Assembly: GCF_032883915.1 (NCBI RefSeq)
Contig: NZ_CP120717.1
Span: forward strand, 3,417,697 to 3,481,696
Direction: 5' to 3'
DNA length: 64,000 nucleotides
Origin: Endozoicomonas sp. 8E
GTDB taxonomy: Bacteria; Pseudomonadota; Gammaproteobacteria; Pseudomonadales; Endozoicomonadaceae
Shown: positions 20,473 through 60,799 of the stretch, piece by piece
Position numbering within the stretch: the first letter of the stretch is position 1
Layout: each line of letters opens with the position of its first letter
Notes under the pieces: generated by a model
The model's input: the letters and a program-made list of their open reading frames with translations, nothing else
The model's database searches: none
Told to the model about the DNA's origin: nothing
Position numbers and translations under genes: made by a program

Positions 20473-23400
20473 GTTCACTGCCGCACAGGCAGCTTAGAAA
20501 TAGACCCCATCCAAAAACATCAAATAGATTCTGTTCACTGCCGCACAGGCAGCTTAGAAAATTACAGTTTGATGATTTACCCTATGTTGGTAGTTCACTG
20601 CCGCACAGGCAGCTTAGAAAAATAATATTCTGAAGATTTAGCAAATGGACTCGTTCACTGCCGCACAGGCAGCTTAGAAAAACACAATCGTCCAGCGAAA
20701 AAACCGGCTCAAGTTCACTGCCGCACAGGCAGCTTAGAAAATATCCCCACTTAGCAACACCGGGCAAAATCTGTTCACTGCCGCACAGGCAGCTTAGAAA
20801 AGACATCCGGCGTATATCGGCTGCCCATAATCGTTCACTGCCGCACAGGCAGCTTAGAAAACTACTATTGTTGCCGCTATCACTGCACTGGCGTTCACTG
20901 CCGCACAGGCAGCTTAGAAATCTTCACGGAAAGGCTGTAACCATTCCGGCATGTTCACTGCCGCACAGGCAGCTTAGAAAATTCTGCTAGTTCCCCATTT
21001 ACCGGCAGCTAAGTTCACTGCCGCACAGGCAGCTTAGAAAAGTAGGAGAAATGTAATTCATACAAGCAGCTTGTTCACTGCCGCACAGGCAGCTTAGAAA
21101 CTTGAGGAAGTTTTTTAATTAGATCATCAGTCAGTTCACTGCCGCACAGGCAGCTTAGAAAAGTATCTATTATTGCAATGGTTTTCGGTATTAGTTCACT
21201 GCCGCACAGGCAGCTTAGAAAAGTCATTGCCGTTGTAGCCACTGAGAAGAAGCGTTCACTGCCGCACAGGCAGCTTAGAAAAAGAACGTGAGCTTAACCA
21301 AGTTAAGCATTCAGTTCACTGCCGCACAGGCAGCTTAGAAATCACGTATCAAGCAAGAATCTTTCTTCAGTATGTTCACTGCCGCACAGGCAGCTTAGAA
21401 AATTAATTTGATAATTCACATCGGCTGATACGCGTTCACTGCCGCACAGGCAGCTTAGAAATTTTATCGGTTAATTAAAAATTAGGAGTATTTGTTCACT
21501 GCCGCACAGGCAGCTTAGAAAATGAAGGATTTGCAGCCATCGGGCTCTAACGTGTTCACTGCCGCACAGGCAGCTTAGAAAATTCATAGCGTGCTTTCTT
21601 GTATGCTTTTAGTGTTCACTGCCGCACAGGCAGCTTAGAAATTGTAACCGTATGCTTGTTAAAACAAGCTACCGTTCACTGCCGCACAGGCAGCTTAGAA
21701 AGTTAAAGTTGCTGATGATCTGCGTGATATTGCGTTCACTGCCGCACAGGCAGCTTAGAAAAGTATCAAACGGTTTGTGTCTGATATTAATCAGTTCACT
21801 GCCGCACAGGCAGCTTAGAAAGACCTGAAGAAACGTTAAAACACATCGGAACCGTTCACTGCCGCACAGGCAGCTTAGAAATCTAAGTCACGAATACAAA
21901 GACTATCTAACATGTTCACTGCCGCACAGGCAGCTTAGAAAATAAAAAGAAGCCACTGGGTAGGATTGTTCTCGTTCACTGCCGCACAGGCAGCTTAGAA
22001 AAGTACATGGGTGAACTTGTCATTGAGGTTTTGGTTCACTGCCGCACAGGCAGCTTAGAAATGATGGTGCCTAAATTCATGTAGGTACCGAAAGTTCACT
22101 GCCGCACAGGCAGCTTAGAAATTCCTGCATAAGCCTGTCATACCTTCTCTTCCGTTCACTGCCGCACAGGCAGCTTAGAAAAGGGTAATATCGGTCGAAA
22201 GTGATGGACTAACCGTTCACTGCCGCACAGGCAGCTTAGAAACACTGTTCACGTGTTATCCACGCTGGCCCTCTGTTCACTGCCGCACAGGCAGCTTAGA
22301 AAAAGGTGAAAACGAGCCACGCTTACCAGACTTGGTTCACTGCCGCACAGGCAGCTTAGAAATGTCCAGAGCCGGAATCCGTAGCAACACAAACGTTCAC
22401 TGCCGCACAGGCAGCTTAGAAATCAGATTTACTACTCTCCTGGGCTCCGCAAATCGTTCACTGCCGCACAGGCAGCTTAGAAAATAAACCCAGCCCATAC
22501 GCCTGACATGTAACGGTTCACTGCCGCACAGGCAGCTTAGAAATAGAAGGCGCAGTTTTAAGAGAAGAAGATAGAGTTCACTGCCGCACAGGCAGCTTAG
22601 AAACTATGTTGACCGCTTCAAATCCCTAAATTTTGGTTCACTGCCGCACAGGCAGCTTAGAAATGCCTCCAGAGAATGTAAGTTGAGCGTAGTCCGTTCA
22701 CTGCCGCACAGGCAGCTTAGAAAAGCGGAACGGATTACCTTCCGTTCTCATCTGGGTTCACTGCCGCACAGGCAGCTTAGAAACATTTAGGATCAGTGCT
22801 GCAGGTTCGGTTGCCGTTCACTGCCGCACAGGCAGCTTAGAAATTTATCTTTCGCAGCCTTGTAGGTCTCTCTAAGTTCACTGCCGCACAGGCAGCTTAG
22901 AAATGAGCGGGTCTTAATTCATCCTGCAGGATGCAGTTCACTGCCGCACAGGCAGCTTAGAAAACTCATTAAAGGGCATGGATGCACCATCTTGGGTTCA
23001 CTGCCGCACAGGCAGCTTAGAAACGATGGATCGCCCTGGCACTTACCAAGTTTTGCGTTCACTGCCGCACAGGCAGCTTAGAAAATCAAGTGAACAAACG
23101 TCTTTCTGTTCACCATGTTCACTGCCGCACAGGCAGCTTAGAAATAAAGATCCCAATAAAACGACGGATGATCCAAGTTCACTGCCGCACAGGCAGCTTA
23201 GAAAAATAAGGCTCTGATACTGTCCATTGCTGATTTGTTCACTGCCGCACAGGCAGCTTAGAAAAACGGGACATTGTTAAGTACATCACAAGGTTCGTTC
23301 ACTGCCGCACAGGCAGCTTAGAAAAACGTCGTAGACTTTGTAGAGTCTGTAGAGTTGTTCACTGCCGCACAGGCAGCTTAGAAATTTAAATTTTTGTCGT

Positions 23401-23536
23401 GTAAATCCTAGCCGTTGTTCACTGCCGCACAGGCAGCTTAGAAAAGCAGTTAAACCCGATACAGAATAAGCATCACGTTCACTGCCGCACAGGCAGCTTA
23501 GAAATTGACAATAGAGTTTGTCCCTGATGGTGCCTA
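20473..23536 (+). CRISPR. Type I-F CRISPR array, leader-proximal part (51 repeats, 51 spacers)
   Basis: Repeats of 28 bp, starting GTTCACTGCC and ending CTTAGAAA, with the Cas6f hairpin CTGCC-GCACA-GGCAG inside. Spacers are 32 nt, with 33 nt at the spacers ending at 21133, 22214, 22455 and 23056. All 51 repeats in this part are identical. The last spacer (23505-23536) is abutted by the IS630 insertion. Processed crRNAs would carry the 5' handle CTTAGAAA. The long open frames that can be read across the array come from the repeat itself and are not genes. Confidence 0.99.
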
Positions 23537-23541
23537 GTACA

Positions 23542-24249
23542 TCACTCCGATTTGATCGTCGGGTAAAGCTTCTTGAGTTTTACCCGAGCATCCTCGGTCG
23601 TAAATCGCCATTCCATTTTGCTTTCTACACCATTACGCTGGGACTCCCACGCTTCAATCTCTGATTTCAGTGCGGCCTGATCGGGTATGCGTCTACTTAA
23701 ACACTGACGACTGAGAATACTCAATTCAATCTCTGCCATGTTGAGCCAGCTTCCATGCTTGGGTGTATAGATGATTTCCAACTTACTGGCCAACCGATGA
23801 GCCTCTCCTGGTTCAAAGGCTTTATAAAGAGATGCAGGTGTATGTGTGTTCAGGTTATCCATGACAAGACGGATGACATCAGCTTTTGGGAAGTGAACAT
23901 CAACCAGCTGTTTGATCTGGTGAGCCCAGTCGCAGGCAGTTCGGCTATCAGTCACCTCGATATGTCGCCAACCTTCCAGTGGCGCAAAAAACATGAAGAG
24001 AGAACTCACACCATTGCGCTCATACTCATTGTCATATTTTAGGGGTTGGCCAGGCTTCATAGGGAGTGGAGTCCTGACCTCCAAAGTATGCTGCTTACTG
24101 CTCTCATCCATACAGATCAGTGGTCGATTCGGATCATGTGGTTGTTGATAAACATCCAAAACACGTTCCATAGCGCAAACAAATTCTGCGTTTGCTTTTT
24201 TTGGAATACACCACTCCTTTTTCTGCCAAGGCTTCAACTCGTTTTTTTT
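23542..24249 (-). CDS. IS630-family transposase, catalytic DDE frame (OrfB)
   Basis: About 230 residues with an intact DDE triad: Asp in LICMDESS, Asp in RLVMDNLNTH and Glu in NMAEIELS. It is reached most naturally by frameshifting at the A8 run rather than from its own ATG at 24237. Ends and both frames look intact, so the element may still be active. Confidence 0.9.
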   Translation of the reverse strand, partial: KKNELKPWQKKEWCIPKKANAEFVCAMERVLDVYQQPHDPNRPLICMDESSKQHTLEVRTPLPMKPGQPLKYDNEYERNGVSSLFMFFAPLEGWRHIEVTDSRTACDWAHQIKQLVDVHFPKADVIRLVMDNLNTHTPASLYKAFEPGEAHRLASKLEIIYTPKHGSWLNMAEIELSILSRQCLSRRIPDQAALKSEIEAWESQRNGVESKMEWRFTTEDARVKLKKLYPTIKSE

Positions 24250-24674
24250 AACTCTCGGCCAATGGTTTGATGCGAGATGGAATTGACATGCTCCAACTCA
24301 ACCATACGGTCAGCGAGAAGCTGTAGCGTCCAGCGGCTATGACCTTCTGGTGGTGTTGAGCAAGCCAGAGCTGTCAATGCCGCCTGCTGCTCCCCCTGGA
24401 GTTTTCTTGGGCGGGCAATGCCATTGAACTTGCTATTAACAGCAATATCCAGCCCTTCAAGTACACAGCGTTTGCGTGTTCTCTGAACCGTTTTCGTTGA
24501 AACACCACAGGTTTGGCTGGTCTGGAGCTCCGTCAGTTTTGGCCCGTTTTCATCGAGACACAGGAGGATCTGGGCATGAATACGTTTATGCTTGGCCACC
24601 TTGGTCTGGTGAATGAGGTCTTTTAATTGCTGCTGTTCGTCTATGGACAGGCGGATACGGTATTGAGCTGGCAT
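24234..24674 (-). CDS. IS630-family transposase, N-terminal frame (OrfA)
   Basis: 146 residues, two helix-turn-helix modules (LTELQTSQTCGVSTKTVQRTRKR region and the C-terminal WTLQLLADRMVELEHV region) that bind the terminal repeats. The frame closes just after a run of eight A residues on the coding strand (24242-24249). Slipping by one base there continues the protein as ELKKNELKPW into the catalytic frame, the normal IS630 continuation, so a programmed frameshift is likely. Confidence 0.9.
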   Translation of the reverse strand: MPAQYRIRLSIDEQQQLKDLIHQTKVAKHKRIHAQILLCLDENGPKLTELQTSQTCGVSTKTVQRTRKRCVLEGLDIAVNSKFNGIARPRKLQGEQQAALTALACSTPPEGHSRWTLQLLADRMVELEHVNSISHQTIGRELKKTS

Positions 24675-24763
24675 AGGTCACCCTGATCTGAATCAGGGAG
24701 AAGAATGCCAGAATGGAAAATTCCGGCATTGCTGCAGGACAAAGAAACTGGAGTTATGTACTA

Positions 24764-27700
24764 GTTCACTGCCGCACAGGCAGCTTAGAAATTGCCCGGA
24801 ATGCTTGGACAGTCTCCGTTCAGGTTCACTGCCGCACAGGCAGCTTAGAAACATATCATCGTGTAGGTGACTGAGTGACTTCCGTTCACTGCCGCACAGG
24901 CAGCTTAGAAATACTCTCGACACGTACAAATGCTTTGTTGAAGGTTCACTGCGGCACAGGCAGCTTAGAAAGATCACTGAAAGGTCGAATGCTGGTCCTC
25001 GCCGTTCACTGCCGCACAGGCAGCTTAGAAAAATAAAAGGCAGTCGTCTGATAGTGAATCGAAGTTCACTGCCGCACAGGCAGCTTAGAAATAGAGCTGG
25101 CAAGACGTTCAACGTCGTACAAAGTTCACTGCCGCACAGGCAGCTTAGAAAATCCTGTCGAACCACTTCCTGAATTTCTCGACGTTCACTGCCGCACAGG
25201 CAGCTTAGAAAGTGTGTGTAGTAAGGCGGCAAAACTTGGTAAGGTTCACTGCCGCACAGGCAGCTTAGAAAATATTGACGGTCTCCCTCTGCCTCCTGAC
25301 TGCGGTTCACTGCCGCACAGGCAGCTTAGAAAAGAGTAAAAAACCGTGAAGTTATCCGCATGAAGTTCACTGCCGCACAGGCAGCTTAGAAATACCTAAA
25401 TGAAGATACCCCAGAGCACCATCAGTTCACTGCCGCACAGGCAGCTTAGAAAAATACCTACCCACCTTGAGCAAAAAAAGAATGGTTCACTGCCGCACAG
25501 GCAGCTTAGAAAATTTTTCGGTGTCTACACTGTAAGGGTTTACTGTTCACTGCCGCACAGGCAGCTTAGAAAATATTCAATGCTAAACCCTACAAGCCTT
25601 CTCAGTTCACTGCCGCACAGGCAGCTTAGAAAATCATCAGGAAGTCGGGAACGGGGTCGTCGTGGTTCACTGCCGCACAGGCAGCTTAGAAAATCTGTCT
25701 ATGACGACTCTATTTCATCTTGTGGTTCACTGCCGCACAGGCAGCTTAGAAAACTGGCACCGCTTCATTGTGTTGGGTGCTGGCGTTCACTGCCGCACAG
25801 GCAGCTTAGAAACAAAACACCACGCTCATGACGCCAGCCTAAACGTTCACTGCCGCACAGGCAGCTTAGAAATCATTTTCATATTGTCGTACCTTCTCGA
25901 CAACGTTCACTGCCGCACAGGCAGCTTAGAAACAACTAATGTTGTGATCGTGCTTTTTGTAATAGTTCACTGCCGCACAGGCAGCTTAGAAATGCAAGAG
26001 ATTCATCAACAAAAACCTTCCACTGTTCACTGCCGCACAGGCAGCTTAGAAAAACGACGACCGGAGGAACTGTCTACTGGGGTAGTTCACTGCCGCACAG
26101 GCAGCTTAGAAAGTTGAAAAAATCGTCATCATACTGTCGTTCATGTTCACTGCCGCACAGGCAGCTTAGAAAACAAAAGCTCGGCGATGCTCGGTCACGT
26201 AAGCGTTCACTGCCGCACAGGCAGCTTAGAAATTGCTCTTAGGCCCGTTTGGATACACTCGTTGGTTCACTGCCGCACAGGCAGCTTAGAAAAATCGCTA
26301 GGGTCGGCAGGATCAACGATCAATGTTCACTGCCGCACAGGCAGCTTAGAAAAGAAAAATTTGGCAGGCAGCTTAGCCGTTTGGGTTCACTGCCGCACAG
26401 GCAGCTTAGAAAAGATTGTTTCTGACATCATCACAAGACGTGTTGTTCACTGCCGCACAGGCAGCTTAGAAAAGTGAAACCGCTTGTTCTTGTTAAAAAT
26501 TGCTGTTCACTGCCGCACAGGCAGCTTAGAAAGGACACGCCGCCTGGACTTGAGCCATCAATTGGTTCACTGCCGCACAGGCAGCTTAGAAAAGTTGCTC
26601 ACGCCATGCGGCACTGGACACTCGGTTCACTGCCGCACAGGCAGCTTAGAAACAGTTAATTTCCAAACAGTAGAAAGCTGATTTGTTCACTGCCGCACAG
26701 GCAGCTTAGAAAAATTGCTTGTAACTCTCTGTGTAAAGACTCATGTTCACTGCCGCACAGGCAGCTTAGAAAATCAGGGCCGTCGGCACCAGGACGTGCC
26801 CGTCGGTTCACTGCCGCACAGGCAGCTTAGAAATCATTGAGAGCGTCTAACATCCTTCTCAGACTGTTCACTGCCGCACAGGCAGCTTAGAAAATGCAGG
26901 TAAGATATCAGTATCCCTTCCTAAAGTTCACTGCCGCACAGGCAGCTTAGAAATGTATTGGTTTACTGTCCTTATTGGAATAGTTGTTCACTGCCGCACA
27001 GGCAGCTTAGAAATCATAGCAGCTTTAGACAACTACTCAATTTCAGTTCACTGCCGCACAGGCAGCTTAGAAAAACGGCGAACCGTGGCCGGGGATCGAC
27101 CGCAAGTTCACTGCCGCACAGGCAGCTTAGAAACTTTTCAGGTGTTAACATCGACAAACGCTCATGTTCACTGCCGCACAGGCAGCTTAGAAAATTAGAG
27201 TAAACTTTTACCGACCGCCGATCTTGTTCACTGCCGCACAGGCAGCTTAGAAAATAACCTTCCATCACCATTTTTGTCACTATTTGTTCACTGCCACACA
27301 GGCAGCTTAGAAAATTCATAGCGTGCTTTCTTGTATGCTTTTAGTGTTCACTGCCGCACAGGCAGCTTAGAAATGAGACACCTTGGGATAAGAAGCTACA
27401 CTGCTGTTCACTGCCGCACAGGCAGCTTAGAAACACTGCTCACCGAGGCCAAGTTTGATGCCGCAGTTCACTGCCGCACAGGCAGCTTAGAAAATGGTGA
27501 AAGGCTCGAAAGTCGGCCAGCAAATGTTCACTGCCGCACAGGCAGCTTAGAAAGCTTGCAAATAATCGTCGGTTTTTTCGTCCTCGTTCACTGCCGCACA
27601 GGCAGCTTAGAAACATATATTCGGTATGACAGTAGACGAGAAGCAGTTCACTGCCGCACAGGCAGCTTAGAAAGACAAATTAAAAAGAGTACAAAACAAA

Positions 27701-29173
27701 CTGATGTTCACTGCCGCACAGGCAGCTTAGAAACATGTTACACATCAGCACCGTTCAGTATCGTGGTTCACTGCCGCACAGGCAGCTTAGAAAGGTCATC
27801 TAGCAGTCATGCGTCGAAAGCTGTCGTTCACTGCCGCACAGGCAGCTTAGAAATTGTGCTCGCAATAGCCACTGTTGTAATAATCGTTCACTGCCGCACA
27901 GGCAGCTTAGAAAAAACCCAATACCATCAACCACTGGTGGCAACAGTTCACTTCCGCACAGGCAGCTTAGAAAAATAAACTGTGTGCCCTGAGTAACAAA
28001 TATCTGTTCACTGCCGCACAGGCAGCTTAGAAACGGTTCGATTGTTGAATATTGCTTCGCATTCGGTTCACTGCCGCACAGGCAGCTTAGAAAAACACTC
28101 TTTTCCATTTAATAAAAATTTGCATGTTCACTGCCGCACAGGCAGCTTAGAAATTCGGAAAGTCCAACGGCCCCACCTGAGCAATGTTCACTGCCGCACA
28201 GGCAGCTTAGAAAGTTGATAAATCTGGAAGGGGGAACCTGCATTGGTTCACTGCCGCACAGGCAGCTTAGAAATAGGGTTATAAAACCTGCTGCAAATGC
28301 AGTAGGTTCACTGCCGCACAGGCAGCTTAGAAATTTAATGATCGACTGGCTAACAGTTGTAATTAATTCACTGCCGCACAGGCAGCTTAGAAAAAATACA
28401 ACAACCGGGAATTACGCAGAGAATAGTTCACTGCCGCACAGGCAGCTTAGAAATTTGCAATCGCGCTGTCACCGTTGCTGATTCTCGTTCACTGCCGCAC
28501 AGGCAGCTTAGAAAAACTACTACAGGCGGAACTGTCTATTGGGGTAGTTCACTGCCGCACAGGCAGCTTAGAAATTTATATGAGTAAACTCTCAGTCCAC
28601 TACCTGGTTCACTGCCGCACAGGCAGCTTAGAAAGTCTTGTTGGAGCTGAACGCAAGGAAGCTCGTGTTCACTGCCGCACAGGCAGCTTAGAAAATGATT
28701 TCAAAGGCGTCACCGGGGTAACGCTCGTTCACTGCCGCACAGGCAGCTTAGAAAGAAAAGACTGCAGCGGCTGAAAGCTTGATGACGTTCACTGCCGCAC
28801 AGGCAGCTTAGAAAAATACCCAGAACAGTACTCAGGCGTTGGAGGGGTTCACTGCCGCACAGGCAGCTTAGAAAACTATCGCCGTGCTGTTTTCTGTCTG
28901 GCCAAGGTTCACGCCGCACAGGCAGCTTAGAAAATCGAAATTAAACGCTACGCACACGCTAAACCGTTCACTGCCGCACAGGCAGCTTAGAAATGAAAGG
29001 AAGGTTTATTCGAAGCGATCAGTTTGTTCACTGCCGCACAGGCAGCTTAGAAAAGATAAATCAAGTACGTCAGCATGCCTCTTATGTTCACTGCCGCACA
29101 GGCAGCTTAGAAATTTAAACAGCTTGATAAGGAAGAAAGCCACAGGTTCACTGCCGCACAGGCAGCTTAGAAA
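24764..29173 (+). CRISPR. Type I-F CRISPR array, leader-distal part (74 repeats, 73 spacers)
   Basis: Continuation of the same array after the insertion. Three spacers are 33 nt (before 25305, 26806 and 28487), the rest 32 nt. Five repeats are damaged: 24944 (CTGCGGCAC), 27286 (CTGCCACAC), 27946 (CACTTCCGC), 28366 (first G to A) and 28907 (one base lost). One spacer (27314-27345) is identical to one in the proximal part (21582-21613). Two others (26053-26084 and 28515-28546) differ only at synonymous positions. Overall the array has 125 repeats and 124 spacers. Confidence 0.99.
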
Positions 29174-29403: not shown

Positions 29404-30120
29404 TTACATTTCCTCCTTGCTTGTGAATGGCGGTGTTTGTTGCTGAAGAGTACTCAGCATGGTCGCCCCCTTCATCGGACTGCCATTATCCGAATGCAGG
29501 ACCAGCGGTTGTTCCTTAAGGCTGATCTTATGCTGCATGAACGCTTTTCGGATCATCTGAGCAGCCAGATCAGAGGACTCCCTCTCATGGACTTCCCAGG
29601 TCACAATCATGCGGCTATAGACGTCCAGAACCAAATAGAGGTAATAATATTTACCCCTGATGGGTGACCCTAAAAAGGTTATATCTCACGACCAGAGCTG
29701 ATTTGGTCCCGTGGCCCGATGCGATGTTGGCTTCCGCTTTCCGGGCTTCCGACTGCGACCGCGGTGATGCTGTTGATTATTAGCCTTGAACACTCGATAA
29801 AAGCTTGACTCAGAAGCCATATAAACACCTTCGTCGGCCAGTGTCGGTACAATCTGGCTTGGCGACTTACTTTTGAATCGCTCGCTGTTACAGACTTTCA
29901 GAATCTCGTTTTGCTCGCTCTTGGTTAGTTGGTTGGCAGGCATTGGCCGGTCTGCGTATTGACGCTGATCTTCCCGCACCTGTTCTACATCGTTTTGCCA
30001 GCGCTGAACCGTGCGTATCGACAGGTTGAGCGCAGCACAGGCTTTCACTTTACGTGCACCCTGTGAAACAGCTTCCTGGATTAAAGCAACGGCTTCCTTG
30101 CGATCAGGGAGAGGAATCAA
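29404..30120 (-). pseudogene. IS3-family transposase OrfB, nonsense mutation and 3' truncation
   Basis: The frame starts at a TTG overlapping OrfA and runs through the helix-turn-helix and HTH_21-like part (SPSQIVPTLADEGVYMASES) to PNQLWS. There a TGA stop at 29686-29688 replaces the Trp codon of the usual WDIT motif. The same frame goes on without further stop through DITFLGSPIRGKYYYLYLVLD and HSDNGSPMKG, i.e. the first two Asp of the rve/DDE core. It then loses similarity near 29430, and the region with the third acidic residue is absent. Confidence 0.88.
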
Positions 30121-30614
30121 TCGTCCTCGCGCTCCCCCCAGATCGCGTTTGCCTTTTTTGTTAGAACCAACAGTGCTGCGGTTTCAGCAAGTGCTTTGTC
30201 TTTGCGTTTGAGTTCTTTTTCGAGTTTCTGGATGCGCTTCTTGTCATCTCGTCTGGCAGCGGCCTGTACCTGACGGGATTCAGCAGGCTTTGTGCTGCCT
30301 GCGATAAAATCAGCTTTCCACTGCTGCAAGTCTTCATAGTAGAGACCCTTCTTACGACAGTATTCGGATAGCTCTGTTGTGTTCATGTTGGCGGTTTCCA
30401 TCAGAACCGCGAACTTGTTTTCAGCACTCCACTGCTGAGGATTCTTACCATCACCGGGCAAGGCTACACCTTGCGCTTTTGCCTGTTTGCGCCAAGTATA
30501 CAGGGTTGCATCAGTAATGCCGGTTTCTCTTTTAAGCTGAGTCACAGAAACATTATTGGGCGGCATCATCTTCTGGATAATGGACTCTTTCATTTCTTTG
30601 GAATAGCGAGCCAT
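30117..30614 (-). CDS. IS3-family transposase OrfA (remnant element)
   Basis: 165 residues. N-terminal helix-turn-helix (VTQLKRETGITDATLYTWRK) and a C-terminal coiled coil/leucine-zipper (KKRIQKLEKELKRKDKALAE), as usual for IS3-family OrfA. The frame overlaps the OrfB start, consistent with frameshift production of OrfAB. Because OrfB is broken the element is not autonomous. It separates the array from the cas genes. Confidence 0.88.
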   Translation of the reverse strand: MARYSKEMKESIIQKMMPPNNVSVTQLKRETGITDATLYTWRKQAKAQGVALPGDGKNPQQWSAENKFAVLMETANMNTTELSEYCRKKGLYYEDLQQWKADFIAGSTKPAESRQVQAAARRDDKKRIQKLEKELKRKDKALAETAALLVLTKKANAIWGEREDD

Positions 30615-30938: not shown

Positions 30939-31490
30939 TCAAAACCAAGGGATTGTTGCTTTCTTGCTTAGTCCAAAAAAGTCAAACTCTCCTGATACCG
31001 GTTTAGTCAATATCTCTCCATGTTGTATGTACCGCCTGTATTTTTCACCTCTCGAGGTGCTAACCAGTTCAAAGTAAGGGTTATCCAAGCCTAGGGTGAA
31101 CATTTTGTCACGATATGCTTTAACTTCCTCTTGTTTTAGCGAACCTCGCTTTAACAATCTCCTCATCTTGGCAGGGCTCATTTTGGTTTGGAGACGTGAA
31201 ACGGTTCGGTGTTTTACGTCATCAGGTACGGGTTGAATAGCTGATAGCTGACAGTAACCTGCCATGCCTCCAAGCCAATTGTGTTGCTGAAAGTCTTCCA
31301 GTCTGGCAGCAGTAGCATGAAGCCGAATAACCCGCCCGAGTATCACTCTATACTCAGGAAAGCTTACCCCAATATCTCTTGCCTGAAGGTCAAACAAGGC
31401 CTTATGCAGCTTGGTATATACAGTGTTAAGCAACCTGTTCTGTCGCATTTCTGCATCGGGCTGGATGCGAATATCCATAAAACTATCCAT
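30939..31490 (-). CDS. cas6f: CRISPR endoribonuclease Cas6f (Csy4)
   Basis: 183 residues that align along their whole length with P. aeruginosa Csy4: start MDSFMDIRIQPD, catalytic His29 (KLHKAL), the arginine-rich helix (MSPAKMRRLLKR), the Ser/Tyr region LVSTSRGEKYRRYI and the C-terminal ending GLSKKATIPWF. It cuts the array transcript at the base of the CTGCC-GCACA-GGCAG hairpin, leaving the 8-nt 5' handle, and stays bound to the 3' hairpin in the effector. Last gene of the cas7fv-cas5fv-cas6f operon, 13 bp after cas5fv. Confidence 0.95.
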   Translation of the reverse strand: MDSFMDIRIQPDAEMRQNRLLNTVYTKLHKALFDLQARDIGVSFPEYRVILGRVIRLHATAARLEDFQQHNWLGGMAGYCQLSAIQPVPDDVKHRTVSRLQTKMSPAKMRRLLKRGSLKQEEVKAYRDKMFTLGLDNPYFELVSTSRGEKYRRYIQHGEILTKPVSGEFDFFGLSKKATIPWF

Positions 31491-31503: not shown

Positions 31504-32535
31504 TCAAATCCGAATATTAGAAACATAGGCCAGTCCTTTTTTGCCAAGATAAAAAGCAGATACACCTGCTTTTTCAATAAGCCCTTTGAGTTCGTTTGCT
31601 TTTTCCGGGGAAATATCCAAATTAACTGTCAGGGTACCGCTGGCCTTGGTCAGCATAGATACAACTTCACCTTCACCCGCTCGTCGTTCTTTAAGAATAT
31701 AGGGGTTGCCCCAGACTATTTTTTTCCGACCAGTGGTATAGCGATCCATAAAGTCTTTTTTGGTAAAACCACGCTTGGATATACCGCCAATGCCTCCATT
31801 CCTGGTTTTTGCACTGCTCATATCATAACTCTTACTCAAACGGTCTAATTGTAGGTACAAAGCTGAGCAATAAAGTGATAGAGGAATGGCGAGTCCCTTG
31901 TTATTGAGGTAATTGATATCGCCCAAGTATGTCGTTAACGCGTTGATTGCAACTTCAGTATCACCTTCAACCACAATAGCATTCAGTTTTTGTAAAGCTT
32001 CCAGTTTCTCAATAACAACTAAAGGTTCATATTTTCTTGTTGTGGTCACTTTGAATTTAGGCTCGGCAATAAACTGGTATAGCTTGTCTAGTTCAAGATC
32101 AAGCACTCCCCAAAATTCTGCGGAATAATTTGAGCTGAATATTGGATCATTAGCCCTTATCATGCCCGTGAATGACTGCTGGTCAGTGCTGCCAGTTACG
32201 TTGCGAAGATAGACTATCTCTTGCGTTAAACCGTTTCGTTGAGCAGGCTTGTCCTGAAAATGAACAGTTGGCTCAATATCAGCAAAATAATAGCGTGCTG
32301 ATTGTCTAGCCTGATATAACTTGCGTTGATCACCAATCAGCCGGTTCAGAATCCCCATAACAGTGTTATGGGTAATATCATGTTTAATAAAGTTACCGAA
32401 CCGGCCTTCTTCTTTCTTTTTAAGAGCTGTCATTGAGCCAATAAAGACTCTGCCTTTTTTTGGAACCGCTTCATTATTAGAGCCAGTCAGGAATGAATTC
32501 CGCCAGCTCGATTCGTAAGTGATTTCTATCTGCAT
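31504..32535 (-). CDS. cas5fv: Cas5fv, type I-F2 effector subunit
   Basis: 343 residues. The sequence is divergent, and assignment rests on position (cas7fv-X-cas6f, no cas8f) and on features seen in the Shewanella type I-F variant: an RNA-binding RAMP-like fold with a glycine-rich segment (NGGIGGISKRGFTKKDFMDRY) and an extra domain. In that variant Cas5fv caps the 5' handle and takes over PAM recognition and DNA gripping from the missing Cas8f. The C-terminal GKKGLAYVSNIRI resembles the end of RAMP proteins. Gap to cas7fv is 11 bp. Confidence 0.82.
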   Translation of the reverse strand: MQIEITYESSWRNSFLTGSNNEAVPKKGRVFIGSMTALKKKEEGRFGNFIKHDITHNTVMGILNRLIGDQRKLYQARQSARYYFADIEPTVHFQDKPAQRNGLTQEIVYLRNVTGSTDQQSFTGMIRANDPIFSSNYSAEFWGVLDLELDKLYQFIAEPKFKVTTTRKYEPLVVIEKLEALQKLNAIVVEGDTEVAINALTTYLGDINYLNNKGLAIPLSLYCSALYLQLDRLSKSYDMSSAKTRNGGIGGISKRGFTKKDFMDRYTTGRKKIVWGNPYILKERRAGEGEVVSMLTKASGTLTVNLDISPEKANELKGLIEKAGVSAFYLGKKGLAYVSNIRI

Positions 32536-32546
32536 GTTAAACTCCG

Positions 32547-33521
32547 TTACTTGCCATAGAAGTAAACAGCATAATCATTTTCGCGTTCTTCCATGATACT
32601 GTCAGGAGTCTGTTTTATCCGCATCATCTTATGACTATTGTTATAGTCAACAGTGATTTCATCGACATACATATAGCCTTTAGCTTGGCGTATGCTGAGT
32701 TCACTAACCATCTGCAGGGTTCTGTTAATCAGAATATCGATGGCCGTATCGTCCAGTAGAATACCAACTTCACCCTCTTCAAAAATCGTCCCTTTGCGGA
32801 CGAAGTTAGGGTGAAATGCTGCTTTAGGATCACGCTCCGGTGCCAGACTTTTGATAAATTCCTGAATGGTGGTTGCAACATTTTCACCTTTGCCCTCTGT
32901 GATAATCATCGCTGGGCGATCAAATTTTTTGTCTAGAGATATAAACTGCAACTGTTCGATACTGATTGAGCCATAGGCTTCGTAAAAAGTCTCTCCAAAA
33001 GTGGTTTTGGAGAAGAAGGAATTACTGGCAACTTCCTTGCCATCTTTGTCTATATCTTTATCTTTACTGCCGGAACGCCCAAGTTGCTCAAAGTTACCGT
33101 TACCCAGCTTATCTTCAAAGTCTTCTATAAGTAGTGGACTGGTGCGTTTACACTGGCTCGAAGGAACAACATAGCCCCGAATCATACCGGTGATAGAGGC
33201 GATTAATGGCAACAGATTTTTATCTTTTGCATAGTGCAGGTCATAGGCCTGCTCTCGAAACAGGTGATGTCGGATACAGTTTTGACTGATATACAGCGGA
33301 TTTTTCTTGAAGTCGATATCAGCCGGGTCTTTTTTAAGCTTGTAGCCTTTATCGCTCTCCTTGCCAGTCAGATTGGTATAACCACGAAGTTTTGGTAATG
33401 AGTGGTTATCTACAATTCGCCCTTCACTCTGTAGAGTTGTTGGGCCATTCCAGTTAACAACACCATGCCCCCGGGCAGTGACTTTGAAGTCAACGCTCTT
33501 GATACCCGTAATTTGTTCCAT
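32547..33521 (-). CDS. cas7fv: Cas7fv, type I-F2 backbone subunit
   Basis: 324 residues, the helical backbone that coats the crRNA spacer in the minimal I-F effector. I set the start at 33521 ([14 protein letters not shown]) because AAAAGG lies 9 nt upstream; longer frames add a hydrophobic stretch ([10 protein letters not shown]) unlikely to be translated. The segment [17 protein letters not shown] resembles the N-terminus of Cas7fv of Shewanella. First gene of the effector operon. Its upstream region carries a site matched by the crRNA-like element at 33686-33758, suggesting guide-directed repression. Confidence 0.85.
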
Positions 33522-33625
33522 ATCGGTATACCTTTTTATAACTATGTAGAATAAAAAAACAATCATCATCACATTGCTCGATGATGACGAGGATGAGTTT
33601 AAGCTATAGACTCAATAATGTCATT

Positions 33626-33644
33626 CCAAGAGGGTTTATATCTT
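33626..33644 (+). promoter_or_regulatory. Self-target (PAM + protospacer) in the cas7fv promoter region
   Basis: CC PAM at 33626-33627 followed by protospacer AAGAGGGTTTATATCTT (33628-33644). It pairs with the 17-nt spacer at 33714-33730 at all positions except 6 and 12. On the minus strand the same bases include TATAAA (complement of 33635-33640), a candidate -10, and lie 107-123 bp before the cas7fv start codon. Binding of an effector here would block the cas7fv-cas5fv-cas6f transcript and perhaps the plus-strand promoter of the element itself. Confidence 0.75.
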
Positions 33645-33685
33645 ATAAGTTATGTGTCGAAATTAGTTGGGCACGGCTATCCTGC

Positions 33686-33758
33686 CCCCTTTGCTGAACA
33701 AGCAGCTTTGAAAAAGAGTGTTTAAATCTTATTGACTGCCGAAAAGGCAGCCAGCGGC
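33686..33758 (+). ncRNA. Degenerate mini-CRISPR encoding a crRNA-like regulatory guide
   Basis: Two repeat-like units flank a short spacer. Unit 1 (33686-33713) keeps the hairpin TTGCT-GAACA-AGCAG and the handle CTTTGAAA (canonical CTTAGAAA); 15 of its last 18 bases equal the array repeat. Unit 2 (33731-33758) keeps CTGCC-GAAAA-GGCAG, 17 of 20 bases matching from TTGACTGCC to GGCAGC, but has lost the handle. Spacer: AAGAGTGTTTAAATCTT, 17 nt instead of 32. Cas6f cutting after both hairpins would give a short guide with 5' handle and 3' hairpin. The spacer matches the cas7fv upstream region (33628-33644). This resembles the cas-regulating crRNA-like RNAs (CreR type) described for other subtypes; function here is inferred. 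Confidence 0.75.
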
Positions 33759-33799: not shown

Positions 33800-36733
33800 T
33801 TAGCTTTCCTTTTTTAACAGCTGCTTGAATGCAATAGCCCCAATGGGCTGTTTATCACATACAGCGTAATAGGTAGCTTCACTGTGCGGGGCTTCTCCTC
33901 CAAGCTTTAAGGAAAGTTCATCAGGTGTATAGCTAATATAAACAGGGTATTCAGGGTCTCTTGCATAGCTTTCCAGCAAGTTTTTTCGAATGGTCATTTT
34001 ATTGGCAGGAATCCCCTTGATAATACTGGCTTCATCCATGCGGCCATGTTTTTGAGCCAGATAATCTAACAGACCATCATTTCTGATTTTATCCAGTGAC
34101 TCCGTCAGGTTATCAATCACCTCACTCTCATTGACACCGATATCATAGGCATATTGATTGAGAATTACAGGCTGCCCTGGCTGATTGACGCAGCACACCG
34201 CCATTTGCACAAAACGACTATCACCACGTAATGAGGATTTTGCAATTTTGGCACGTCCCTGTTGTTTCTTTATGGAAAAAACCATCGGTTCAGTGACTTT
34301 TGAGTGAATAGTTGTAACGCTTTTCATCAGCGATGCAGTAAGGTCACTAGTCAATGCCTTTGTATAAGCACTGTCAGGCTGGTAAAACTTTTGGTAGAGC
34401 TCATAGATATCAGTAAGCACGAATGGCTTGCTTATAGTATTAGACTCATTCAATAAGAATTCGTACCATGCTTTTGTTGAGGCAAAATTGTTATTTCTGG
34501 CAAGAAAGCGAGCAACAGCACCAGTACCTTTCCCAGCAGCCAAGGAATCAGGTATTGCAAGAGTAAGTTTGTTTACATCGTGATCATTCACCCCAAACCG
34601 ATCTAACCGCCCAAGCCGTTGTAATGTATTTTCTGCTGTAGTTATTTCAGTCACCATATTGTCACAGCTAATATTAAGTGATGCCTGTACTATTGGGCCG
34701 CTTCGCAATACCTGATACATATGGCTACCTTCATTGCAGAATGAGTCATAGACTTCATCGAACAATCGCTGTTTATCACTCTTTTTAAATTTAGAGTGCA
34801 GTAAAATGGCATTTTCTTGATGCTGGTTGACAATAAAGCTTTTTTGTGCTGTGGTAGCTGTATTACTTATGACGAATGTATTGGAAATACAGGGTTGGTA
34901 AAGCGGATTACTGCTACCTTCCTGTGTCTCATCATAGTTCTTAAAGCAAAACTGATATAGGCTTGTGTTAAATGAAGGCATTACAACGACATCTTCCTGC
35001 CGGATACCCAAAATCTGGTCAAGATAAAAATAGTGGGGCGTTGCTGAAACTAGCAGGGTATTTGCATATTTTTGTTGGGAACGGCTTTTTAGCAGTTCTG
35101 CAAACAATAAGTTAAAGGCTGGCATATTTATGTATTCATGAAATTCATCAAATACCGTATGGGTGTTCAGATATTCAATAAATAAGTCTGCCTTAGTGTG
35201 GCTGATGATGCCTGCAAACAGCTGATCAATAGTAGTAATGACGATATCACCAGAAAGGTAAGCTCCTTCCGGTGTTGGGTGATCATAGGAGTTCAGGAAT
35301 TTGAATTCGCCGGTATAAATCTCGATAGAAGCATCAGGCAAATACTGATTGCTTGACAGCTCCAGAAACAGCCCCTGACAGACTTGCACTCTGGGGCAAA
35401 TCCAAAGGATCTTTTTGGTATTTCTCAGGTTGGCCCACTCCAGAGCAATTTTGGTTTTTCCGCATCCAGCCGCGCCTGAAAGAACCTGGACCTGACTTCC
35501 TTGTGCGAGTTGTGATGCTATTTTCGTCTGCTCTTGAGTACGACTACTGTTAGAAAAGCGGCTCAGGCAATCATCAATGTGCATACAGAGACCGTCATCT
35601 TTAAGCAAACGATCACCAACAAATTCAACAATGTCTTTATCATTAATCAGTTCATCCAACTCTTGTGCAGTCAGGGCAGAAACCCAGCGGTCAGCGGTAA
35701 TAACACAGGAACGAACAATATTATTTGTGGCGTTAAAATGGATCTTACCGGAGTATTCTGAAAGCAGTTCACAATCATCGTATTCTTTATACGAAGGTAC
35801 ATTAATATCTTCAATCTCATGTATTCTTTCTAGATTGAGATCTGCCAAATAACATCTACTGAACCAGTCATTGTTTGATTTCTCATAACGCTGATCGATT
35901 TTGCTGACTACGTTCAGCATTGGAATTGCCTTTTCAACAATATCAACCCATGCCTGCCCCTTTAAATTTCGGTTCAGTTTTTTATAAATACTGCCATAGG
36001 TTTCAAAACCAGCCTCTTTACGGAACGGCTTGGCATGGTGCCAGTAGATGCTATGTCTGACTGATTTTTTATTTTGAGTATTGATTCCTTTAAGGTCGCT
36101 ATGGTCTAAGAGCATGTAGAGCAAAGCTGATATTTCATTATGCCTTGGATGCTTTTCAAAACTGAAACGGGCTTCATCGATATGCTGTCCATCTTCAGCT
36201 ATATATTTTTGATTTTTAGGCTTCACAACCCAAGACTGAAAACAGGGGTCAAGTTTTCCCATGTCATGAAAAGCGCCCGCCACAAATACGGCTCTTGCAA
36301 GCGCAGTATTTTCAGGAAATAGCTTTTGGCAAAGCATTTGAGCGGTATATGCGACTGCAAATAGGTGCTGATCTAGCCGTTGCAGTTTAGTATTTGCATA
36401 AAGCACACCCTTTACAGGCTTACTGGTAGGTATATCCATCGGAACCTCTTTTTCTGTGATATTGACGGGAACCCGCCCGTTATAGCTGAAACGATTTTTA
36501 CTTCCAACCACCCAAACCAACTCACTACGCGACCGAGACCGAATCCAGTGGCAACTGACGGCAGTACTCTTAGTCGCTGTTTTCCGCAGCAGTTTTTTAA
36601 CGGCGTTTAATCCTTCCTGAGTAATAATGGTTTGCCAGGTGTTGTCGCCAATTCGGTCTGCAAAAGCATCCAGAACCCGTCGTGTTTTTTTCAGGGCATT
36701 TTTTTCGCACTGGGAAACAAAGGTAACCATCAT
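33800..36733 (-). CDS. cas2-3: Cas2-3 fusion (integration partner and helicase-nuclease)
   Basis: 977 residues with the type I-F domain order: Cas2 (about 1-95), HD nuclease (HD at 156-157 in AFHDMGK), superfamily 2 helicase with Walker A GAAGCGKT (420-427), DEFH box (529-532), SAT motif (563-565) and motif VI QRLGRLDR (705-712), then a C-terminal domain. It nicks and degrades target DNA when recruited by the effector and forms the Cas1-Cas2-3 integration complex. The start lies 6 bp after the cas1 stop, so the two are co-transcribed. Confidence 0.95.
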   Translation of the reverse strand: MMVTFVSQCEKNALKKTRRVLDAFADRIGDNTWQTIITQEGLNAVKKLLRKTATKSTAVSCHWIRSRSRSELVWVVGSKNRFSYNGRVPVNITEKEVPMDIPTSKPVKGVLYANTKLQRLDQHLFAVAYTAQMLCQKLFPENTALARAVFVAGAFHDMGKLDPCFQSWVVKPKNQKYIAEDGQHIDEARFSFEKHPRHNEISALLYMLLDHSDLKGINTQNKKSVRHSIYWHHAKPFRKEAGFETYGSIYKKLNRNLKGQAWVDIVEKAIPMLNVVSKIDQRYEKSNNDWFSRCYLADLNLERIHEIEDINVPSYKEYDDCELLSEYSGKIHFNATNNIVRSCVITADRWVSALTAQELDELINDKDIVEFVGDRLLKDDGLCMHIDDCLSRFSNSSRTQEQTKIASQLAQGSQVQVLSGAAGCGKTKIALEWANLRNTKKILWICPRVQVCQGLFLELSSNQYLPDASIEIYTGEFKFLNSYDHPTPEGAYLSGDIVITTIDQLFAGIISHTKADLFIEYLNTHTVFDEFHEYINMPAFNLLFAELLKSRSQQKYANTLLVSATPHYFYLDQILGIRQEDVVVMPSFNTSLYQFCFKNYDETQEGSSNPLYQPCISNTFVISNTATTAQKSFIVNQHQENAILLHSKFKKSDKQRLFDEVYDSFCNEGSHMYQVLRSGPIVQASLNISCDNMVTEITTAENTLQRLGRLDRFGVNDHDVNKLTLAIPDSLAAGKGTGAVARFLARNNNFASTKAWYEFLLNESNTISKPFVLTDIYELYQKFYQPDSAYTKALTSDLTASLMKSVTTIHSKVTEPMVFSIKKQQGRAKIAKSSLRGDSRFVQMAVCCVNQPGQPVILNQYAYDIGVNESEVIDNLTESLDKIRNDGLLDYLAQKHGRMDEASIIKGIPANKMTIRKNLLESYARDPEYPVYISYTPDELSLKLGGEAPHSEATYYAVCDKQPIGAIAFKQLLKKES

Positions 36734-36739
36734 GGCTGC

Positions 36740-37681
36740 TTACTCCCAGTCATCTTTAAGGGCTATGGCTTTTACTTGATCAAACATAAAATCCAGGGCC
36801 TTATGATCAGTAAATGCCTGCAAACACTGTTGTCGGAACTCTTGCTCTGTAGCGCCTTCCTTTGCACAGACAAACGACCAGGGAAGAACCAGCGTATCCT
36901 TGATGAGATCAGCTATATCAAATACCAGAGCTCCCCGACGGGTTTTGCCATGCATCACTGCAAAGCCATGAGGGATACCTAATACCCAAAGTGTGGTTGC
37001 TGCCAGTCCGTAAGCCAGATAATTACCATGATTCAAAAATGTATTAGCCTGATCTTCTGCGCTGCGTTCACGAGTAAATGAACCATAACCGGTTTGCCGT
37101 GCTGCAAACTTATAAAGCGTCTTGGTCAGCCGAGCCTCTGCCTGTAGTAAATCATTGACTGTTAATACCTTGTTGATTGTGCTTTCAGTAGTCTCAAGCT
37201 CAGGCTTTATGCTATCAATGAGAAAGCCTTCATTTTTAAGATCTCTGTCTTTGCCCCAGATGGTTTTCATAAACTGAATTCTGGCGAGCTGCATTTGTTT
37301 GGCTGCTTGTAATCTTTTCTGCTCATCAAACCAGAACTGCATCCAGCCCTGCATGTATTCAGTGGGGCGATATTCACTTTGTGGCGTTAACCATTCCACC
37401 TCATTGGCCATCAACAGGGGAGTTCCACCTCCACCACAAAAGCCAATTAACACACCGGCAGAAGCCAGCATTCGAACAGCGGCCTGAGTAATAGAGGTCC
37501 CGTTGCCCAATAGCAGGCAAGTAGTGTTGGCAATGGGAATATTCCAGTAGTGGTTGTTATTTTTTGCTTCGGTAAGATAGAGCACCCGGCCATCTTTCTG
37601 CATGATCCGGCATTTTTCCAGATAATAGATATTGGCTCTTTTTGAATGCAGAATGGCCTTGAGATCTGTCAATACATCCAT
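36740..37681 (-). CDS. cas1: CRISPR integrase Cas1 (type I-F)
   Basis: 313 residues from the ATG at 37681, chosen because AAAGGAG lies about 10 nt upstream and MDVLTDLKAILHSKRANIYYL matches the family N-terminus. Metal-binding residues are present: Glu182 (AEARL), His244 (MHGKTRRG) and Asp255/Asp258 (VFDIADLIKD). The glycine-rich GFCGGGGTPL and the WLTPQSEYRPTEY motif are typical of I-F Cas1. It integrates new spacers with Cas2-3. First gene of the cas1-cas2-3 operon at the right edge of the island. Confidence 0.96.
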   Translation of the reverse strand: MDVLTDLKAILHSKRANIYYLEKCRIMQKDGRVLYLTEAKNNNHYWNIPIANTTCLLLGNGTSITQAAVRMLASAGVLIGFCGGGGTPLLMANEVEWLTPQSEYRPTEYMQGWMQFWFDEQKRLQAAKQMQLARIQFMKTIWGKDRDLKNEGFLIDSIKPELETTESTINKVLTVNDLLQAEARLTKTLYKFAARQTGYGSFTRERSAEDQANTFLNHGNYLAYGLAATTLWVLGIPHGFAVMHGKTRRGALVFDIADLIKDTLVLPWSFVCAKEGATEQEFRQQCLQAFTDHKALDFMFDQVKAIALKDDWE

Positions 37682-37777
37682 TGCACAACACTCCTTTTCT
37701 GAACCATGGCTCTCATTTAAATGCATCAAATTCAGATTTAAAAAAATAAGCAGGATGGTATGGCTGTCTTATTTCGT

Positions 37778-60154: not shown

Positions 60155-60257
60155 TTCGTTGCTCCAATCTATTGACAGCAGACGAAATATTCTTAAACTA
60201 CGCAGCATCTTCGACGGACACGAAGCTCAAGCGCTTCAGGTACTGACGAATATAAAT

Positions 60258-60343
60258 GCGGGAATAGCTCAGTGGGTAGAGCACAACCTTTCCCAAGGTT
60301 GGGGTCGCCTCAGAGTTAAAGAGTGAGTCTCGTTTCCTGCTCC
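60258..60343 (+). pseudogene. tRNA-Gly-like copy 1 (damaged)
   Basis: Begins like tRNA-Gly (GCGGGAATAGCTCAG). The anticodon loop is one base longer (TTTCCCAA instead of TTGCCAA) and the T-arm is replaced by TCAGAGTTAAAGAGT, with no TTCGA loop. A small hairpin (GGACTTTGAAGAAGTCC) follows. Confidence 0.8.
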
Positions 60344-60375
60344 GGACTTTGAAGAAGTCCTAAAACATCTTTATT

Positions 60376-60459
60376 GCGGGAATAGCTCAGTTGGTAGAGC
60401 ACAACCTTGCCAAGGTTGGGGTCGCCCAGAGTTAAAGAGTGAGTCTCGTTTTCCGCTCC
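60376..60459 (+). pseudogene. tRNA-Gly-like copy 2 (T-arm disrupted)
   Basis: Normal acceptor 5' strand, D-arm and GCC anticodon arm, but six T-arm bases are replaced by CCAGAGTTAAAGAGT, removing the TTCGA T-loop. The 3' acceptor has one change (TTTCCGC), which leaves a G-U pair. First of three identical 116-bp units. Confidence 0.82.
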
Positions 60460-60491
60460 GGACTTTGAAGAAGTCCTAAAACATCTTTATT

Positions 60492-60575
60492 GCGGGAATA
60501 GCTCAGTTGGTAGAGCACAACCTTGCCAAGGTTGGGGTCGCCCAGAGTTAAAGAGTGAGTCTCGTTTTCCGCTCC
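60492..60575 (+). pseudogene. tRNA-Gly-like copy 3 (T-arm disrupted)
   Basis: Same sequence as copy 2, exactly 116 bp downstream, including the spacer hairpin. Confidence 0.82.
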
Positions 60576-60607
60576 GGACTTTGAAGAAGTCCTAAAACAT
60601 CTTTATT

Positions 60608-60691
60608 GCGGGAATAGCTCAGTTGGTAGAGCACAACCTTGCCAAGGTTGGGGTCGCCCAGAGTTAAAGAGTGAGTCTCGTTTTCCGCTCC
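60608..60691 (+). pseudogene. tRNA-Gly-like copy 4 (T-arm disrupted)
   Basis: Same sequence as copies 2 and 3, a further 116 bp downstream; the next unit is the intact tRNA-Gly. Confidence 0.82.
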
Positions 60692-60723
60692 GGACTTTGA
60701 AGAAGTCCTAAAACATCTTTATT

Positions 60724-60799
<76 letters not shown>

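Follow-up and report, generated by a model that had tools for sequence, protein, structure and literature searches.

The window, that is, the whole stretch of 64,000 nucleotides analysed here, belongs to a genome assembled as a single contig of 7.38 Mb and carries a complete type I-F2 (I-Fv) operon, recognised by cas7fv, cas5fv and cas6f following cas2-3 without cas8. The effector of this subtype has been described as made of three Cas proteins, with no large subunit (PMC7266957). A gap of 278 bases separates the cas2-3 stop (33800) from the cas7fv ATG (33521), and within it lies a small CRISPR-like element on the plus strand, antisense to cas1, cas2-3, cas7fv, cas5fv and cas6f, which are all on the minus strand. 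The features are the following:

20473-29173, plus strand: CRISPR array of 125 repeats, interrupted by a transposase region
30939-31490, minus strand: cas6f (TIGR02563), the expected processing enzyme
31504-32535, minus strand: cas5fv (PDLC02041)
32547-33521, minus strand: cas7fv (NF040577, PDLC02049)
33553-33590, minus strand: terminator-like hairpin with a T-run, between target and cas7fv
33596-33624, minus strand: predicted cas7fv promoter, -35 ATGACA (33624-33619) and -10 TAAACT (33601-33596)
33626-33644, plus strand: target, non-target strand, CC PAM followed by the protospacer AAGAGGGTTTATATCTT
33678-33683, plus strand: candidate creR promoter hexamer TATCCT, -10-like, ending 2 nt before psiR1
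33686-33713, plus strand: psiR1, degenerate I-F repeat CCCCTTTGCTGAACAAGCAGCTTTGAAA, stem TTGCT/AGCAG, handle CTTTGAAA
33714-33730, plus strand: psiS, 17-nt guide AAGAGTGTTTAAATCTT
33731-33758, plus strand: psiR2, degenerate repeat ATTGACTGCCGAAAAGGCAGCCAGCGGC, canonical stem CTGCC/GGCAG, handle lost
33800-36733, minus strand: cas2-3 (cas3fv; PDLC02033), upstream of the element
36740-37729, minus strand: cas1 (TIGR03637)

Two repeat-like units around a guide at a cas locus are the arrangement of CreR, the cas-regulating RNAs known in types I-B, I-E and V-A (PMC13131331). The short guide of a CreR is in part complementary to the promoter of the cas operon to which it belongs, and autorepression proceeds via the system's own effector (PMC12737573). 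The first-pass annotation had given coordinates for the repeats, the spacer and the target, which a re-reading of the sequence found right to the base, and it had stated that both hairpins keep their stem and that psiR1 keeps an 8-nt handle. Both statements agree with the present reading: the stem of psiR1 is paired at 5/5 positions (one G.U), with two pairs differing from the array repeat, its handle is identical to that of the array repeat at 7 of 8 positions, and the psiR2 stem-loop shares 13/15 bases with the array repeat, its stem being paired at 5/5. The best predicted RNA fold has both hairpins (psiR1 with 4 pairs); it is not unusually stable, being equalled by 17 of 200 shuffles, and the centroid structure is without the psiR1 hairpin. 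Rfam returned zero family matches for the element up to E=1.

The guide and its target in the window

Guide and target agree at all of the 17 positions except 6 and 12, and the match extends to position 19 when the first two bases of psiR2 are included. On the target strand, I-Fv requires GG as its PAM, which is CC here (PMC4605320). The earlier claim of a 15/17 match beside a type I-F CC PAM holds in the window. Limited guide complementarity to a nearby site with a correct PAM is a trait of CreR; a crRNA-like unit with a PAM-flanked target is likewise a trait of CreTA, discussed below.

With positions 1-5 and 7-11 scored, the observed value at the CC site is 10/10, which was equalled by 7 of 20,000 shuffles of the window guide over the 164 nt from cas7fv to psiR1; across the nine loci tested, shuffled guides score 10 in 4-18 of 20,000 cases. 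CC plus the guide, with N at positions 6 and 12, has a single occurrence in the 7.38-Mb genome, namely the target itself. A chance match was dropped as an explanation, the shuffles, the genome-wide pattern search and the swapped guides and array spacers reported below all being against it. A coding origin of the similarity was dropped as well, since target and element are both within the intergenic gap and the furthest upstream start of the cas7fv frame, at 33572, is short of the target. The gap holds no other ORF of at least 90 aa. The cas7fv frame itself is open for 17 codons upstream of its ATG (33522-33572), with hydrophobic residues and in overlap with the terminator-like hairpin; this open stretch is probably due to chance.

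Occurrence and constraint of the element among I-F2 loci

Cas7fv was searched in genomes through 1,907 look-ups, a figure that includes overlaps and under which several groups were sampled rather than exhausted, and further scans covered GTDB contigs, viral contigs and plasmids; no Cas7fv relatives were found in the viral contigs and no DNA relatives of the window gap among the plasmids. The cas2-3/cas7fv junction was read in 81 I-F2 locus records, which still contain near copies (L012/L009, L113/L138, L130/L145 from one genome) and the close kin L053/L054. Dropped from them were L001, L003 and L004, which are on the same contigs as L043, L084 and L049, and the short versions of loci later obtained longer, while L129 (half of a split gene) and L109 (a weak partial hit) were left out. 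The element search required a handle of at least 6/8 and five paired stem bases and scored positions 1-5 and 7-11, demands under which elements with one repeat, or in more advanced decay, would escape it.

The element was found in 13 of the 81 records, most I-F2 loci being without it. It occurs in 0 of 57 records with a gap of at most 147 nt, most such gaps being too short to hold it, and in 13 of the 24 in which the gap exceeds 200 nt (23 records) or cas2-3 is off the contig (L059). In addition to the window (family f1), the bearers are L053, L054, L055, L056, L057 and L059 in f170, L078 in f223, and L075, L133, L134, L135 and L136 in f2, and the element is antisense in 13/13. The remaining parts of the operon that were examined (cas1-cas3, cas7-cas5 and the 700 nt before cas1) gave no candidate with a seed score of at least 9, this search covering the regions that are on the contig and exceed 60 nt with margins. 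Within the genus of the window, cas7fv is present in 0 of 9 other genomes, and within its family in 1 of 36, where the genes abut and the element is absent.

The other 11 long-gap records contain different inserts or nothing recognised. Small type II toxin-antitoxin-like genes are repeatedly inserted at this gap of I-F2 operons: by eye they were seen in L001/L043, L002, L055, L057, L103, L104, L105 and L108, and probably also in L053 and L054, with a PIN domain found by Pfam in both gap loci tested (L057 and L104). In L055 and L057 a single gap contains both genes of this kind and the crRNA-like element.

The first-pass annotation had proposed an alignment of related I-F2 gaps to see whether spacer and target co-vary, and the comparison made here came out in favour of co-variation. 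In 13/13 element loci the guide matches a CC-flanked site in its own gap at positions 1-5 and 7-11 (10/10 of the seed), the absence of mismatches at these positions being partly built into the search. There are at least seven distinct 11-nt guide starts among the 13 loci, the lineage guides being AAGAGTGTTTA, ACTATGTTCTA, ACTACATTCTA, TTAGTACTCTT, TTGATAGTGGT, ATAAGAGTTTT and GTAGTACTCAT, each with its own target. Among 217 array spacers from eight element loci (up to 80 per locus) none scores above 8/10 against its own gap, and among 112 guides swapped between lineage groups one scores 9 and zero score 10. Other units passing the repeat filters (psiR2 copies, AT-rich candidates in L058, L086 and L116, and a remnant in L137) score 3-6 against 10 for the elements, with nothing in between. 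The match is longer in L078 (17/18), L133 (17/17) and L134 (16/17, with the sole mismatch at 12). Guide length, measured in nine loci that do not include L133-L136, is 12, 13, 13, 13, 13, 14, 14, 17 and 20 nt, as compared with 32 in the arrays.

The base at position 6 is flipped out by each Cas7. Mismatches confined to positions 6 and 12, as stated in the first-pass annotation, are indeed found in the window, but do not extend to a rule across the 13 loci, and this rule was dropped: position 6 is mismatched in seven (the window, L053, L054, L055, L059, L075 and L078) and matched in L056, L057, L133, L134, L135 and L136, whereas position 12 is mismatched in ten and matched in L075, L078 and L133. 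The position 6 mismatches were not produced by the search, as this position was left out of the score.

Constraint was assessed in four comparisons of related loci, L053 being used twice, the element being defined as repeat stem-loops, handle, seed and target. The element differs at 0/62, 2/62, 0/62 and 1/62 positions, and the gap outside it at 10/134, 26/134, 51/149 and 41/200 (Fisher p from 0.03 to 1e-9). Both element differences between L053 and L055 are at position 11, one in the guide and one in the target, with A changed to T in each. The psiR1 stem, tabulated for three array repeats and nine psiR1, is paired in 60/60 cells, and each of its 5 pairs shows two-sided changes, part of this variation lying between arrays.

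These results bear on two explanations in which the element does not target DNA at present. According to the first, it would be a decayed mini-array or insertion scar devoid of present function, with a guide/target match due to ancestry or chance. The repeats are degenerate, most I-F2 loci do without the element, and decay does happen, as suggested by L137 (G1268), in whose gap a repeat-like remnant has a guide scoring 5/10; nevertheless, the element is less variable than its surroundings within the gap in all four comparisons, matched guides are found in several lineages while shuffles, swapped guides and array spacers fail, and one change is common to guide and target, so that this origin is considered very unlikely. 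The L137 gap, in which TTTTAGTTG is also repeated in a long tandem run, is possibly an end stage of element loss; cas7fv of this locus is divided between contigs. According to the second explanation, an antisense transcript, or decoy repeats occupying Cas6f, would limit effector supply. The element is antisense to the operon, and solitary repeats of phages (RacrIF1) are reported to be bound and processed by Cas6f and to inhibit I-F immunity (PMC10651486); a decoy, though, needs neither the guide/target match nor the PAM nor the co-change that are present here, and this is the least probable of the readings considered.

A quick Cas7fv tree with 55 rows, which predates L133-L136, requires 8 changes to account for where the element is present, and 237 of 500 shuffles are as low in a group comparison. 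Presence is thus scattered, without clustering, which would mean either loss and regain of the element or its movement. A shared descent is indicated for the guide version ACTAYNTTCT, which is common to f170 and f223.

Promoter and terminator signals around the target

The target had been proposed earlier to be the promoter of cas7fv. In the window the promoter match is not beyond chance (1 found as compared with 1.2 expected, 17% of shuffles scoring as well), which qualifies that part of the proposal; its geometry is like that of the relatives. On the cas strand the best hexamer 18-26 nt past the GG was taken, and for this reason some -10-like hexamer is found in every locus. At 19-25 nt downstream of the GG, this hexamer is within the best 8% of its gap in 9/13 loci and is an exact TATAAT in six of 13, while it is unremarkable in four, where 15% (window), 11% (L075), 26% (L133) and 24% (L136) of hexamers are as good. 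The Fisher combination over the 13 loci, which are related to one another, is 8e-7. Hexamers resembling a -35 start 1-2 nt past the GG in L075 (TTGAAA), L136 (TTGAAA), L133 (TTGATT) and the window (ATGACA). When the whole promoter was scored in nine loci, L075 (0/200 shuffles as good) and L056 (4%) stood out, and the remaining loci, including the window (17%), did not.

On the creR side, a -10-like hexamer ends 1-3 nt before psiR1 in 9/9 loci and is among the three best hexamers of the stretch, a position that would start the RNA at the first hairpin. For the TATCCT hexamer of the window no convincing -35 was found.

At 33553-33590 two overlapping terminator-like sequences are found, against 0.5 expected, and such a hairpin between target and cas7fv is present in one of the 13 element loci, the window. 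A simple autorepression model does not explain it. If transcription started near 33589, the cas7fv mRNA would begin with this hairpin, and several relatives also have a predicted hairpin there. In L134 and L135 (G1276, G1382) the target is on the cas2-3 side of the element, so that transcription towards cas7fv would have to cross the antisense element first; in both, an AUG lies within a possible hairpin just after the -10, as judged by eye.

The same stretch is where the main rival explanation would have to be sought, namely a CreTA module in which a crRNA-like antitoxin (CreA) would repress CreT, a toxic small RNA read from the target site towards cas7fv, and the cell would thereby become dependent on its Cascade. 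CreTA is known for I-F1 (PMC10097628), and it is a serious rival because an Acinetobacter I-F1 system (WCHA45) has one between cas3 and csy1, a comparable location; its psiS is 20 nt long with mismatches at 6, 11 and 18, its PAM is CC, and downstream of the target there is a divergent 33-bp ORF, the toxic-RNA gene (PMC10097628). The element described here resembles it in its position after cas3, its two degenerate repeats, its short guide, its CC PAM and its tolerated mismatch at position 6. Moreover, the hairpin of the window could end a short transcript before cas7fv, and type II toxin-antitoxin-like genes occupy the same gap in other loci. However, the terminator-like sequence is not shared by the other twelve element loci, and unlike in Acinetobacter no conserved small gene was seen past the target, the first conserved gene downstream being cas7fv in 13/13. 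Under a narrow filter, mini-ORFs of 5-40 codons preceded by a Shine-Dalgarno sequence (SD) occur in two of the 13 loci (L133 and L134) and not in the window, and these two start with GTG and TTG and have no similarity to each other. A CreTA is regarded as unlikely.

Proposed autorepression and its relation to known systems

The reading preferred here, to which a probability of about 0.78 is given, is that the element is a CreR-type mini-CRISPR and lets the minimal Cascade repress cas7fv, cas5fv and cas6f, the genes that encode it. A creR RNA would be transcribed rightwards from just before psiR1, and Cas6f would cut after both hairpins, leaving an RNA of about 45 nt that starts with CUUUGAAA and comprises the 8-nt handle, the 17-nt guide and a 3' hairpin. 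On this RNA, Cas5fv and a shortened row of Cas7fv would assemble. The target is predicted to coincide with the -35 position of a promoter that drives cas7fv, or to lie immediately before it, and there the short complex would bind and block RNA polymerase, its R-loop being presumably too short to trigger Cas2-3. Since cas1 and cas2-3 precede the site, only the amount of effector complex would be controlled by the loop. Gleditzsch is said to have found in 2016 that I-Fv tolerates changed crRNA length.

Work on I-F1 Cascade provides a frame for such short guides: the complex assembles on a 14-nt spacer and has been purified with spacers down to 14 nt, a spacer length of 6N-4 corresponds to N Cas7, shortened Cascades with truncated R-loops fail to trigger Cas2/3, and 14-nt guides, which are assembled, yet give no reduction of phage infection in vivo (PMC7296934). 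In an I-B system, a 24-bp spacer is reported to repress without interference (PMC10989794). The first-pass annotation had left open whether occupancy by the short guide falls or rises when array crRNAs are scarce or the effector is sequestered. A direction can now be taken from the published CreR model, in which repression is relieved by abundant crRNAs and anti-CRISPRs (PMC12737573): abundant array crRNAs competing for the effector, or anti-CRISPRs removing it, would lift repression. Counted against the CreR reading are the missing effect of 14-nt I-F1 guides on phage infection, together with the length of 12-14 nt of seven of the nine measured guides, the weak promoter match and the terminator-like hairpin of the window, the -10-like hexamers that are unremarkable in 4/13 loci, the scattered presence on the Cas7fv tree, the majority of I-F2 loci that lack the element, and the side on which the target lies in L134 and L135.

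Like published CreR, the element is mini-CRISPR-like and has a short guide partly matching a site in its own cas operon, which may be a promoter, and it would likewise act through the effector of its own system. Unlike them, it belongs to subtype I-F2, without Cas8, it is antisense inside the operon, its guides are 12-20 nt in the nine loci measured, and the promoter that it would control is a predicted internal one for cas7fv-5fv-6f, with cas1 and cas2-3 outside the loop. The I-F2 subtype, the internal promoter and the very short guides are rated, from these comparisons, as what would be new relative to published CreR. A survey of crRNA-like mini-arrays by Shmakov et al. in 2023 reportedly found that targets are often cas8 promoters and tested one I-F1 case; the present element is likewise a putative regulatory mini-array near a predicted cas promoter, in a subtype that is, unlike those, without cas8. 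In the open literature searched, outside the primary CreR paper and the mini-array survey, neither CreR nor CreTA was found for I-F2.

A further, tentative idea, judged rather more likely to be wrong than right, is that of a movable self-regulated promoter cassette, in which promoter, operator and their own RNA guide travel or persist together at a single junction of the I-F2 operon and split the effector genes from those for adaptation and the nuclease. If this were true, the 12-nt guides, each with a row of perhaps two or three Cas7fv, would rank with the shortest type I guides found in nature, and operators would diversify together with their guides from lineage to lineage. As for the CreR reading, a natural loop in I-Fv would give this minimal complex a regulatory role beside its defensive one. 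It would also mean that 12-20 nt is a sufficient guide length in vivo and that the supply of effector can be adjusted independently of Cas1/Cas2-3; the thirteen pairs of guide and operator would then be natural test pieces for the type I guide minimum and for compact repressors.

Some features of the array and of the rest of the window may be added. The array spacers are of 32 nt in 115/123 cases, and one spacer is duplicated, at 21582 and 27314, identical over 32 nt and 5.7 kb apart. A leader-like AT-rich stretch precedes 20473, and the repeats are more degenerate towards the cas end. A DDE_3 transposase region (23542-24674) interrupts the array, and ORFs with an HTH_Tnp_1 transposase domain (29686-30614) are located between the array and cas6f. 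The array strand is opposite to that of the cas genes in the window, and in relatives with repeats seen after cas6f the repeats are on the cas strand. Finally, 60257-60799 contains 4.4 tandem copies with a 116-bp period and 98% matches, the unit having a tRNA-Gly-like part, and ARAGORN identifies within these copies one tRNA-Gly at 60724-60799.
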